Origin: Chloroflexota bacterium
GTDB taxonomy: Bacteria > Chloroflexota > Dehalococcoidia > Dehalococcoidales > UBA5760
Assembly (NCBI GenBank): GCA_015222205.1
Contig: JADFUW010000015.1
Coordinates: forward strand, 1 to 36,687
Direction of reading: 5' to 3'
Length of the DNA stretch: 36,687 nucleotides
Part shown: positions 17,222 to 21,052 of the stretch, piece by piece
Layout of the letters: every line of letters begins with the position of its first letter
Position numbering within the stretch: the stretch's first letter is position 1
Program-made: the position numbers and the translations under genes
Notes under the pieces: generated by a model
The model's input: only the letters and a program-made list of their open reading frames with translations
Database searches by the model: none
Told to the model about the DNA's origin: nothing

Positions 17222-17590
17222 CTACTTCCATTTAATCGTCGCCTTCCCCTTTTCGCTGTCAGAGTCTAACTCTTTTTCCAGCCCTTGCAGTCTGCCGACT
17301 AACTCTTCAAACTCGGTTTTCGGTGATTGTTTACCCAGCTCAAGTCCATAACTAACAAAAAAGTCAAGAAAGCTTCTGAGGAGCTTCTTTATATCTTGCT
17401 CAAGGGAATGAAACTCCTCCTTGGTTACATACTGCTGCTCTTTGGTTACACCTTTTGACTCTTTGGTTTCCTCTTTTAGCTGACTATCAATTAGAAAATC
17501 GATAAGTTCTGCTTGACTCATGTCACCACGATTTTCATCAATTCTATCAACGAGTTCTGCCGGTACTATCAACATCCTCTTTTTCGCCAT
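17222..17590 (-). CDS. Small ribbon-helix-helix-like protein, possible regulator
   Basis: A 122-residue hydrophilic protein. The N-terminal 40 residues (KKRMLIVPAELVDRIDENRG, then SQAELIDFLIDSQLKEE) have the strand-helix-helix spacing and hydrophobic pattern of ribbon-helix-helix DNA-binding proteins. The rest (about 50-122) is charged and predicted helical, with heptad-like LLRSFLDF and LVGRLQGLEKEL, suited to a coiled coil. It has its own promoter, with the palindrome GTTCTAGAA next to the -10 box, a strong GGAGGAG ribosome site and a terminator. The same palindrome stands before the downstream lipid-type operon, so it may regulate both; that is inference. No exact family is recognised. Confidence 0.6.
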   Translation of the reverse strand: MAKKRMLIVPAELVDRIDENRGDMSQAELIDFLIDSQLKEETKESKGVTKEQQYVTKEEFHSLEQDIKKLLRSFLDFFVSYGLELGKQSPKTEFEELVGRLQGLEKELDSDSEKGKATIKWK

Positions 17591-17635: not shown

Positions 17636-17664
17636 ATAGTAGTTCTAGAAAGCCAAAAGGTCAA
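17636..17664 (-). promoter_or_regulatory. Promoter with embedded palindrome for the 122-residue gene
   Basis: On the minus strand TTGACC (17659-17664) and TACTAT (17636-17641) are 17 bases apart. AGTTCTAGAA (17641-17650), containing the palindrome TTCTAGAA, abuts the -10 box within the spacer, a normal place for a repressor site. The same ten bases occur at 17071-17080. Confidence 0.55.
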
Positions 17665-17918
17665 TCTTCCTCTCTTAGCTCGAGCATCGCCAGCACAACA
17701 TCTATATTCTTGAGTAGCCTGAGACCTTTCCTGGTTACTCTATAGGTTACGATAGGATTGCCTATAGTAACCTTATCTATCAGTTTTAATTCAAGCAGGA
17801 AGCCAAGATACTTTTGCAACTGGAAGAAACTCATATTAGCGCTGTACATTATCTCAGTCTTACCAGCCTCACCCAGTCTCAATATATCAGCTATTACCTG
17901 AATGCTCGACCTCCGCAC
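17661..17918 (-). CDS. Small winged-helix protein, archaeal-type
   Basis: An 85-residue stand-alone winged helix. RRSSIQVIADILRLGEAGKTEIMYSANMSFFQLQKYLGFLLELKLI gives the three helices, and VTYRVTRKGLRLLKNID gives the beta-wing and last helix. This is the pattern of small archaeal-style regulators (ArsR/HTH_45-like) that are frequent in Dehalococcoidia. The start is GTG 17918 with GGGGG a few bases upstream; no ATG is available. It has its own consensus promoter with a palindrome in the spacer (17955-17983), so it probably controls itself. Its targets are unknown. Confidence 0.72.
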   Translation of the reverse strand: MRRSSIQVIADILRLGEAGKTEIMYSANMSFFQLQKYLGFLLELKLIDKVTIGNPIVTYRVTRKGLRLLKNIDVVLAMLELREED

Positions 17919-18038: not shown

Positions 18039-18863
18039 CTAGAATAGCCCCAGATACCAGCCAAGGATATTAGTTCCCCACAGCAGGGTAACTATAGTAG
18101 CTAGAGAGAGGGCGGGACCAAAGGGAATGGCATCTTCTCGCTTCTTTATCTTGAGTAGAAGCAGAATCCCGGCCACCAAACCACCTAGAATTGCTGCCAA
18201 GACTAGGGCAAAAAACACCAGGGGAAAGCCGATAACTAGCCCTATCAAGGCTGCCATCTTGACATCCCCCCACCCCACACCCCCTTTGGAAATAAGAACT
18301 ATTAGCAGGGATATTCCCAGCCCGACACCACCACCAATAGCGGAGTACTTAACCCCCGGCACCACCCCTAGTTGAGGCAAAAAGACGCTGATGAGCAGAG
18401 CCGCTACCATAGTTGGGTAGACCAACCTATTGAGGATAAGCCCACGCTCCTTATCAATGACCATAAGCACGATGAATAAACAGCAGTAGAAGGCAATAAC
18501 CCCTAGCTCAACACTCAAGCCATAGTGCCCGTAGAGGTAAGCAAATAGAGCCCCAGTGCCAATTTCTACCCACGGTAGGCGCCTGGGGATAGAAGCCCGG
18601 CAATAGCGACAACGGCCACGCAGCCACAAGTAGCTAAAAACAGGAACCAGGTCCTTTACCATCAGGCGATGATGGCAAAAAGCACAATGGGAGGCTGGAA
18701 AAAGGAGCGACTCCTTATCGGGCAAGCGGTCAATACAGACATTGAGGAAACTACCCACCGCCATCCCCAGTATGACAAAAACGGCTATCAAGACACCTTC
18801 CATCTCGGTTTCTATTTTGGATGTTTTTTCTAGTCTAGTCAATAGGAGACTATCATTTAACAC
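18039..18863 (-). CDS. Type IV prepilin peptidase (leader peptidase, A24 family)
   Basis: A 274-residue membrane aspartic protease that removes the leader of type IV prepilins and methylates the new N-terminus. It has GSFLNVCIDRLP (37-48), the two cytoplasmic Cys pairs Cys60-x2-Cys63 and Cys85-x2-Cys88, and both catalytic aspartates: Asp137 in VIDKERGL and Asp200 in GWGDVKMAALIG. Eight hydrophobic segments are visible. The bifunctional PilD form is indicated by the N-terminal methylase domain with its cysteines. Met21 (ATG 18803) starts just before the first membrane span and may be the true start; neither site has a clear ribosome site. It is divergent from the zinc-ribbon gene and 1.7 kb from a pilin gene, its likely substrate. 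Confidence 0.88.
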   Translation of the reverse strand: MLNDSLLLTRLEKTSKIETEMEGVLIAVFVILGMAVGSFLNVCIDRLPDKESLLFPASHCAFCHHRLMVKDLVPVFSYLWLRGRCRYCRASIPRRLPWVEIGTGALFAYLYGHYGLSVELGVIAFYCCLFIVLMVIDKERGLILNRLVYPTMVAALLISVFLPQLGVVPGVKYSAIGGGVGLGISLLIVLISKGGVGWGDVKMAALIGLVIGFPLVFFALVLAAILGGLVAGILLLLKIKKREDAIPFGPALSLATIVTLLWGTNILGWYLGLF

Positions 18864-18956: not shown

Positions 18957-20324
18957 ATGGCTAAAGATAATGAGACGGTACACCCAGTAGAAACCTCGCT
19001 GGCAATAGGGGAAGACGAGAAAGCCACGAAACTGGTGATGGAAATACTGGCGGGGAGGATTATTGATATCAGACCCGAGCTTGATTTCACCAGCGAACTG
19101 GGTTTCACCTATCCTATTGCCAAACAAACACTAGGGGTTAAGGACAAGGAGTTACTATCAATCCTGGAATCCCTGGTTGATAAGGGCATACTCAAGAGGG
19201 ATTTCTTTGACCGGCTTCTCCGTTGCCCTCAGTGCGGGTCAATAAACCTGAGACCAACCACCCACTGCCCTAAGTGTGGCTCAGGGAATATTGCCCGGGG
19301 CAGGATTCTGGAGCACTTTGTCTGTGGATATGTTGGGCTTGAAGACGAGTTTGTAACCGAGGGGAGATACATATGTCCCAGGTGCCAAACGGAGCTAAAG
19401 ACTATTGACAGCGACTATAAGAGCCGGGGGTTACTGCATAAGTGCCACGATTGCGGTGACATATTCACCCTACCGTTAATAAAATGGCGCTGCCTGCAAT
19501 GCTCCTCGCTTACTGCTGAAGATAAGGTCACCGAGGTAAATATCTACTCTTATAGATTGAATGAGACAAAGAGGGGCTGGCTAGACTTTGAGCTTAACCC
19601 CAAACTCAAACTCATAGGGTTTTTGCATGGGCGTGGCTATGAAGTAACCGAAAATGCCACCAAAATGGGTAGGTCCGGTGCTGAGCACAGTTTAGATATA
19701 CTAGCCGCCCGGGATGATGGCATCGTTACGCATCACATTGCTATCGGCATTGAGGTTGGTGAGGAACCGATAGGGCTAAATAGGCTATTTAGCTTTGACA
19801 ACAAGGTCTATGATATCGGCATCCATGAGAAAGTCCTCGTGGTCGCGCCGGGATTAACCAAGGAAGCGAAGGCATTTGCCAGCCGGCAGAGGATTAAGGT
19901 GCTTGAGGCCAGTGATTTGGAAACAGTGCTAGCCAGTGCTACCTCTCAACCAAGCGTGGAGATAAAGAAGGAGCCATTTGAATTCAAGTCCAAATCACAG
20001 CTCATAGAATACCTGAAGCAGCGTGGCTACGAGATAAAGGAAAATACTGCGGTTAAGGGCAGGTCTGGTGCCGAGCATAATATAGACATACTAGCTACCA
20101 GGGACGATGGCATCATTACGCATTATATTGCTATCGGCATTGAGGTAAGCGAGGAACCGATAGAACTAAACAAGCTGTTTGACTTTGATGATAAGGCTTA
20201 TGATATCGGCATTCAGGATAAGGTCTTCATCACTGTCCCGGGACTTAGCCGGGAAGCCAGGCAATTTGCCGAGAGGCAGCGAACAAAGGTCTTTGAGGTT
20301 AAGGAATTAGAACCAGCTGACTAA
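18957..20324 (+). CDS. Zinc-ribbon protein with two tandem restriction-endonuclease-like domains
   Basis: A 455-residue protein. Residues 1-85 look like a winged-helix segment. A cysteine-rich part follows with pairs at Cys90/93, Cys104/107, Cys140/143, Cys163/166 and Cys179/182, plus a lone Cys123; it resembles the TackOD1-type zinc-ribbon output module, though I hold that name loosely. Residues 211-320 and 341-450 are two copies of one domain (63 of 100 aligned positions identical), each with RGYE, GRSGAEH, DILA and IAIGIEV. The pattern is that of Mrr-like restriction endonuclease folds. The Asp is kept, but the Lys expected after E-x is Gly or Ser, so cleavage may be lost. It lies between the prepilin peptidase and pilin genes. 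A role in DNA binding or signalling is inference. Confidence 0.6.
   Translation: MAKDNETVHPVETSLAIGEDEKATKLVMEILAGRIIDIRPELDFTSELGFTYPIAKQTLGVKDKELLSILESLVDKGILKRDFFDRLLRCPQCGSINLRPTTHCPKCGSGNIARGRILEHFVCGYVGLEDEFVTEGRYICPRCQTELKTIDSDYKSRGLLHKCHDCGDIFTLPLIKWRCLQCSSLTAEDKVTEVNIYSYRLNETKRGWLDFELNPKLKLIGFLHGRGYEVTENATKMGRSGAEHSLDILAARDDGIVTHHIAIGIEVGEEPIGLNRLFSFDNKVYDIGIHEKVLVVAPGLTKEAKAFASRQRIKVLEASDLETVLASATSQPSVEIKKEPFEFKSKSQLIEYLKQRGYEIKENTAVKGRSGAEHNIDILATRDDGIITHYIAIGIEVSEEPIELNKLFDFDDKAYDIGIQDKVFITVPGLSREARQFAERQRTKVFEVKELEPAD
19587..20306 (+). repeat. Internal tandem duplication within the zinc-ribbon gene
   Basis: Bases 19587-19916 and 19977-20306 encode the two copies of the nuclease-like domain, offset by exactly 390 bases (130 codons). 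Long stretches also agree at the DNA level, for instance GCTATCGGCATTGAGGT in both, which suggests a fairly recent duplication or conversion. Confidence 0.85.
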
Positions 20325-20602: not shown

Positions 20603-21052
20603 ATGATGAAAGGGTTTATAGAGAGGCTTCGCTATGGTGAGAGGAGATTCAGGAGAACATTCCGCCACGGAGAGAAGGGCTTCACCCTGATGGAGCTGCT
20701 CATCGTGATTGCCGTCCTCGGTGTCCTGGCCGCAGTGCTGGTGCCCCGCATGGGCGCTTTCCTGTCCTCAGGGCAGGTAGCGGCAGCCAATACCGAGGTA
20801 GCCAATGTAGAAACGGCAGCCCTGGCTTTCTATGCCGATGCTAGTGCCTGGCCTGCCGACACGAACACTGCCGGGACTACCTCATTACGCCATGGCCCCG
20901 GTGGCGAGCAATATCTCAGCAAAGATGCTGTGCATAATTACACATTTGACACGGATGGCAAGGTTGTTGTCGTCGATAACACAGTATGGCCTAACGATGC
21001 AAAGGTCTTTTGGGATGTTGCTACTCATACCTGGAAGAAACAGACAGTATAG
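20603..21052 (+). CDS. Type IV pilin-like protein (prepilin, GspG-like)
   Basis: A 149-residue prepilin. A basic 26-residue leader ends in EKG, and cleavage before Phe27 gives a mature start FTLMELLIVIAVLGVLAAVLVP with the assembly Glu at position +5 (Glu31). A helical segment (SSGQVAAANTEVANVETAALAFYADASAWP) and a short beta-rich C-terminus follow, much like a GspG-type major pseudopilin. It would be processed by the prepilin peptidase encoded 1.7 kb away and assembled into a pilus or secretion pseudopilus; no assembly ATPase or platform gene is in the window. A strong ribosome site (AAAGGAGG) stands about 10 bases before ATG 20603. It is a single-gene unit with its own terminator. Confidence 0.9.
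   Translation: MMKGFIERLRYGERRFRRTFRHGEKGFTLMELLIVIAVLGVLAAVLVPRMGAFLSSGQVAAANTEVANVETAALAFYADASAWPADTNTAGTTSLRHGPGGEQYLSKDAVHNYTFDTDGKVVVVDNTVWPNDAKVFWDVATHTWKKQTV

Follow-up and report, generated by a model that had tools for sequence, protein, structure and literature searches.

A protein of 455 amino acids encoded in the window (the whole stretch of 36,687 nucleotides analysed here) carries, behind a zinc-binding TackOD1 domain, a tandem pair of catalytically degenerate domains with the predicted fold of restriction endonucleases (REases), and the same pair is fused in the same genome to PilB, the extension motor of type IV pili (T4P). The pair, referred to as Mrr2, probably serves as a module for regulation and docking, and not for cleavage, in the T4P extension motor of Dehalococcoidia, with the TackOD1-pair protein acting in trans. 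The coordinates of the window protein, its parts, its neighbours and the PilB fusion are given in Table 1.

Table 1. Features of the window protein, its flanking genes and the PilB fusion of the same genome
Feature	Position	Strand	Evidence
TackOD1-Mrr-Mrr protein, 455 aa	18957..20324	+	ORF
TackOD1 domain, aa 21-201, winged-helix-like N-part, five CxxC + one HxxC	19017..19559	+	PF18551 E 6.9e-44; 11 Cys at 90-182; wHTH-like match 2p4w Z 8.3
Mrr-like unit 1, aa 211-322, catalytically degenerate	19587..19922	+	
Mrr-like unit 2, aa 341-452, catalytically degenerate; G394/E396 at expected Q/E and K positions; S370, G371, D377, K413, D416 kept	19977..20312	+	
Prepilin peptidase (PilD), divergent neighbour	18039..18863	-	PF06750 E 3e-32, PF01478 E 8e-14
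Type IV pilin, N-methylation motif	20603..21052	+	PF07963 E 4e-8
PilB fusion	L004:5513-7924		T2SSE E 3.5e-123, MshEN 2e-17, Mrr_cat 7e-11

The zinc ribbon named in the original prediction was confirmed by profile search, in which the window protein scored 150 bits against TackOD1 (PF18551; curated cut-off, 32), a named family previously linked with pilus loci in archaea. The paired arrangement of its cysteines stood, but their number is 11 instead of ten, the additional one being C123 within HxxC, and all 11 are invariant in a 16-sequence alignment of homologues. The C-terminal part of the protein matched Mrr_cat (PF04471) in two stretches (E 1.6e-11; 44.8 bits against a cut-off of 21).

The AlphaFold2 model of the window protein, built with 16 homologues, reached a pLDDT of 81.5 and a pTM of 0.64, and both units were well predicted, with pLDDT mostly 84-93. 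The alpha-beta-beta-beta-alpha-beta core of Mrr_cat and PD-(D/E)XK nucleases is present in this model. By Foldseek and VIA-align, the closest fold match was AF1548 (1y88; Z 14.1, rmsd 2.9, 113 aa), and other matches included NucS/EndoMS, Can2, Cdn1, EcoT38I, FokI and RPB5, a non-catalytic subunit of RNA polymerase. Based on these matches, the REase-like fold that had been claimed is confirmed for both units as PD-(D/E)XK at the level of the predicted structure. Sequence search of the PDB identified only AF1548, at E 0.02, and two probable chance matches.

The two units match each other without gaps at an offset of 130 residues (70 of 112 positions identical), with a BLOSUM62 score of 371 as compared with 31 at the next-best offset, and the DNA of the repeat is 71% identical, or 58% at third positions. 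The figures reported before (63 of 100 positions identical, offset of 130 codons) were right, and the core GRSGAEH...DILA...IAIGIEV is found in each copy. The duplication had also been called recent, and this part failed. In a tree of 89 units (119 columns, many forks open; L022_P1 is a mislabelled second unit from the same protein as L072), the two copies fall into distinct lineages throughout Dehalococcoidia: one clade (98/98) unites the second units of 18 TackOD1 proteins, and a tendency to cluster by position is also seen for the first units and for both the first and the second units of PilB. Since the duplication is older than the spread of these lineages, it is, on sequence grounds, old. 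The three-part protein of TackOD1 and two units is conserved at 15 database loci (one of them, L015, cut at its start), all from Chloroflexota and nearly all titled Dehalococcoidia or Dehalococcoidales.

The second match in the own genome is a protein of 803 amino acids, in which the tandem pair precedes MshEN_C and the T2SSE ATPase, identifying it as PilB; its gene is followed by those for PilC, pilins, a PilM/PilN-like protein and PilT. The match to MshEN (PF05157) starts at profile position 12, indicating that MshEN_C is kept, and in the model of the PilB N-terminus the REase units matched AF1548 with Z 14.0 and the MshEN_C half matched MshE (5htl) over 77 aa with Z 11.0. MshEN_N, a four-helix subdomain that binds c-di-GMP in other PilBs, comprises residues 1-64 of MshE with two 24-residue RLGxx...LxxQ motifs, and MshEN_C comes next, as described for MshE (PMC5013675). 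A profile of MshEN_N was constructed from 12 ordinary Dehalococcoidia PilBs, a 13th fetched as ordinary (L148) being left outside for want of a complete PilB frame. All 12, each left out in turn, scored 72-108 bits, and a score below 7 bits, or no match at all, was obtained for each of the 38 rows (36 distinct) that comprise pair-fused PilBs, pair-adjacent PilBs and short PilBs without the pair.

The PilBs without MshEN_N form one clade (98/94) apart from the ordinary PilBs, and most of those examined carry the pair in cis. In five cases (L081, L082, L083, L120 and L121) PilB is devoid of the pair and a TackOD1-pair gene is located 13-31 bp upstream of pilB, while L068 of this pair-adjacent group has both the fused pair and the TackOD1-pair gene. 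Seven PilBs of the clade (L137-L141, L143 and L145) have the pair neither in cis nor in an adjoining TackOD1-pair gene, which indicates that the module is dispensable; their genomes are outside the 20 with TackOD1 (see below). The nesting of the clade fits an ancestral fused PilB with several losses, a second fusion being possible. Loss of c-di-GMP as the cause of the swap was rejected because GGDEF proteins, found in 189 of 294 genomes, remain in module genomes such as G000. Among the open-access papers searched, none with a fusion of PilB to an REase or Mrr domain was found.

Several other features were observed around these PilBs. One PilB of 1098 aa (L073:1573-4866, minus strand) carries four REase units before MshEN_C and the ATPase. 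A LuxR-type response regulator is encoded directly upstream of the PilB fusion at L004:4732-5442 (plus strand), and likewise in L069, L071, L072, L084, L085 and L128; a similar gene lies upstream of the pair-less PilBs of L138 and L139. In L068, L081, L082 and L083, a large protein of 1053-1183 aa with a weak Sortilin-Vps10-like match, possibly a surface protein, is encoded divergently beside the TackOD1-pair/PilB operon.

Among the own genome and 40 relatives, 12 of the 41 matched the pair; most of the frames concerned are 770-830 aa (PilB) or about 460 aa (TackOD1) long. In the class as a whole, the unit was detected in 44 of 294 genomes, mostly as tandem pairs in frames of PilB or TackOD1 length; a weak third match in each PilB proved to be an artefact of the profile and was filtered out on length. 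Many of the sampled genomes are fragmented MAGs, for which absence of a gene is weak evidence. MshEN, detected in 116 of the 294 genomes, was present in 41 of 43 unit genomes as against 75 of 251 others (Fisher p 7e-17, with genomes counted as independent and relatedness ignored); G240, with an unrelated Mrr-HlyD protein, was dropped before this test, and G140, with fragment matches only, was kept. TackOD1 was above the cut-off in 20 of the 294 genomes, and the unit was present in all 20, following within the TackOD1 frame in 19; the TackOD1 frame of G248 is a fragment of 129 aa.

The unit profile was also run against the phylum and viral contigs, and plasmids were searched with the window protein. 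A total of 17 out of 301 genomes of the phylum sample matched, all within the own class, and none of 22 pattern stretches in the viral scan was confirmed as a relative. The plasmid search by tblastn gave 21 records, none covering 80% of the query, and the seven examined, from haloarchaea and Proteobacteria, are TackOD1 proteins that lack the tandem pair. A role in defence or in mobile elements was rejected on these viral and plasmid results.

A T4P gene is located within 5 kb of 24 of the 29 distinct TackOD1-pair genes: PilD and/or a pilin in the window and many others, PilB (f48, f90) or PilT (f79). The TackOD1-pair gene adjoins pilT in L019/L129, L130, L131 and L076. Four of the five misses (L008, L016, L125 and L132) are at contig ends; L011, in which no T4P gene was found near the TackOD1-pair gene within full flanks, is a real exception. 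The placement between prepilin peptidase and pilin genes, from which a pilus link had been proposed, was verified (Table 1), and the link itself, extended by PilB fusions and by operons with pilB or pilT, is much stronger than could be seen from the window. Beside PilD, the window also encodes a coiled-coil protein (17222-17590, minus strand) and an archaeal-type winged-helix protein (17661-17918, minus strand; HTH_45, E 1e-19). Both are possible pilus regulators; their gene order is kept in L005, L006, L009, L010 and L014, and similar genes lie near the PilB fusion in L071 and L128.

No receiver domain was detected by profile search in the window protein, but one is present at the start of the complete relatives L087 and L122, the latter adjoining genes for a histidine kinase and a response regulator. 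From this REC-TackOD1-pair architecture, TackOD1-Mrr2 could be driven by a phosphorelay. In L087 (3996-8578) and in L080, which is cut at the contig start, the REC-TackOD1-pair gene is followed by genes for a family-2 glycosyltransferase and a GDP-mannose dehydratase-like protein, suggesting surface polysaccharide, not pili, as the output of this paralogue.

Upon profile alignment with an intact Mrr domain (SNF2-Mrr protein L074 of the same class), the catalytic q-c-k falls on G394-I395-E396, so that both Q/E and K are lost; the absence of the catalytic Lys, predicted for both copies, was thereby borne out. Among 111 aligned units (a few being the same protein with different ends), position 394 is G in 62, D in 30, C in 8 and E in 5, and position 396 is E in 32, L in 29, A in 16, I in 12 and K in 9. 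The full catalytic triad is found in a single unit, that of the unrelated outgroup L086 (Mrr-HlyD protein). Other residues are retained in nearly all of the 111 units: S370 in 110, G371 in 108, D377 in 103, K413 in 99 and D/E416 in 110. The loss of the triad together with the retention of these residues indicates that the nuclease centre has gone and a different patch has been held constant, and the selected non-cleaving role foreseen in the original prediction appears right. As judged from this conservation, binding of a ligand or partner, not cleavage, is the probable function of the patch (GxSGxxH...D and FDxKAYD) at the old active site; a rearranged catalytic site is less likely than a binding site.

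What the patch may bind leads to a narrower proposal, put forward only tentatively: the dead nuclease pair would be a new signal receptor, which replaced the c-di-GMP sensor of PilB and whose former active site accommodates a different nucleotide-like signal, the zinc partner with the same pair passing phosphorelay or other signals in trans. REase-fold domains often pair, and together with the several losses of the pair in the PilB clade this would agree with a mere structural or dimerisation spacer in the PilB and TackOD1 proteins, devoid of ligand and regulation; such a role is doubtful, however, because the near-invariance of the patch exceeds the needs of spacing and the pair occurs on response regulators as well. 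A nuclease fold with a conserved site could also point to binding of nucleic acids, by which the pair would couple the pilus motor to DNA uptake, and the ComEC-type Competence domain was indeed detected in 17 of 18 module genomes tested. The one genome without a match is the own MAG (90% complete), however, and the presence of ComEC says little, since it is widespread in bacteria and was found in 10 of 14 control genomes; moreover, the site of action of PilB is the cytoplasmic base of the pilus and not the point of DNA entry, and the DNA-uptake role is considered improbable. Persistent nuclease activity from a rearranged active site, in which D377 (strand 2) and K413 and D416 (next helix) replace (E/D/Q)xK, is very unlikely. 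In its favour, 96 of the 111 units combine D377 with K/R413 and D/E416, helix 404-417 directly follows the third strand in the model, and nucleases are known in which the catalytic Lys has moved to a helix. Against it, none of the 110 in-family units has the normal triad, strand 3 offers no constant second acid, G or D being the usual residue at position 394, and a lasting fusion to a pilus motor is an odd location for a nuclease.

With the pair taken as a regulatory and docking module, its location in PilB, N-terminal to MshEN_C and the ATPase at the position of MshEN_N, suggests an input or coupling domain of the motor. The window protein, in which the same pair is attached to the zinc-binding TackOD1 output domain, probably acts in trans on the pilus machine, where it may stand in for an absent PilB pair or pair with that of PilB through REase-fold contacts. 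As a trans regulator, it would play a part similar to that of PilZ/FimX, known to act on PilB in bacteria other than these (PMC11656802). Signals reach the pilus motor through the N-terminal domain of PilB, whose workings are described as poorly understood (PMC11656802). A whole lineage has exchanged the c-di-GMP part of PilB for inactivated nuclease domains, and the same domains are also found on response regulators and on zinc proteins distinct from PilB. Whether a nuclease fold has become a motor regulator can be tested directly in this case, and TackOD1 gains a first lead to its function. If the proposal of a dead-nuclease receptor is true, it would add to type IV pili an input route not described before. 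The PilB form is present in small single-contig genomes of the same order, and cultured organisms should be usable.

The defining features of TackOD1 include 11 conserved Cys with five CxxC and one HxxC (PMC5847659). TackOD1 (arCOG06883) proteins occur in thaumarchaeal T4P loci (PMC4858521, PMC5847659), which is an independent link to pili; the role of the domain was called obscure by its describers (PMC5847659). In Aeromonas, a plasmid-borne TackOD1 (L163:2584-3966, plus strand) is joined to a GGDEF domain that is weak and possibly degenerate, and a similar-looking protein was observed in Photobacterium (L160). The haloarchaeal TackOD1 proteins of about 325 aa (L157, L158, L159 and L162) have a C-terminal stretch that was given 18% probability as an REase unit by profile comparison; that it may be a decayed single unit is a weak indication from sequence and is not claimed.

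Compared with known systems, the inactive REase domains associated with NACHT (PF22722 and PF22739) resemble the pair in being, to go by their Pfam names, inactive Mrr-like domains in a non-nuclease role, but their partners differ from those of the window protein, which matched neither profile at E up to 1. The units share the fold, the order of elements and the first Asp with Mrr_cat (PF04471) and PD-(D/E)XK nucleases such as AF1548, but differ from these in the absence of (E/D/Q)xK, a new conserved helix motif, FDxKAYD, the tandem arrangement and the pilus context. The zinc part is a clear member of TackOD1 with its 11 Cys and with a pilus-locus context as in Thaumarchaeota; unlike the architectures listed in PMC5847659 (TackOD1, REC-TackOD1 and REC-wHTH-TackOD1, stand-alone forms included), the window protein has a C-terminal REase pair. 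With respect to MshEN of PilB and MshE (PF05157), the pair occupies the same position in PilB and MshEN_C is retained, but in the fusions MshEN_N is replaced by the REase pair.
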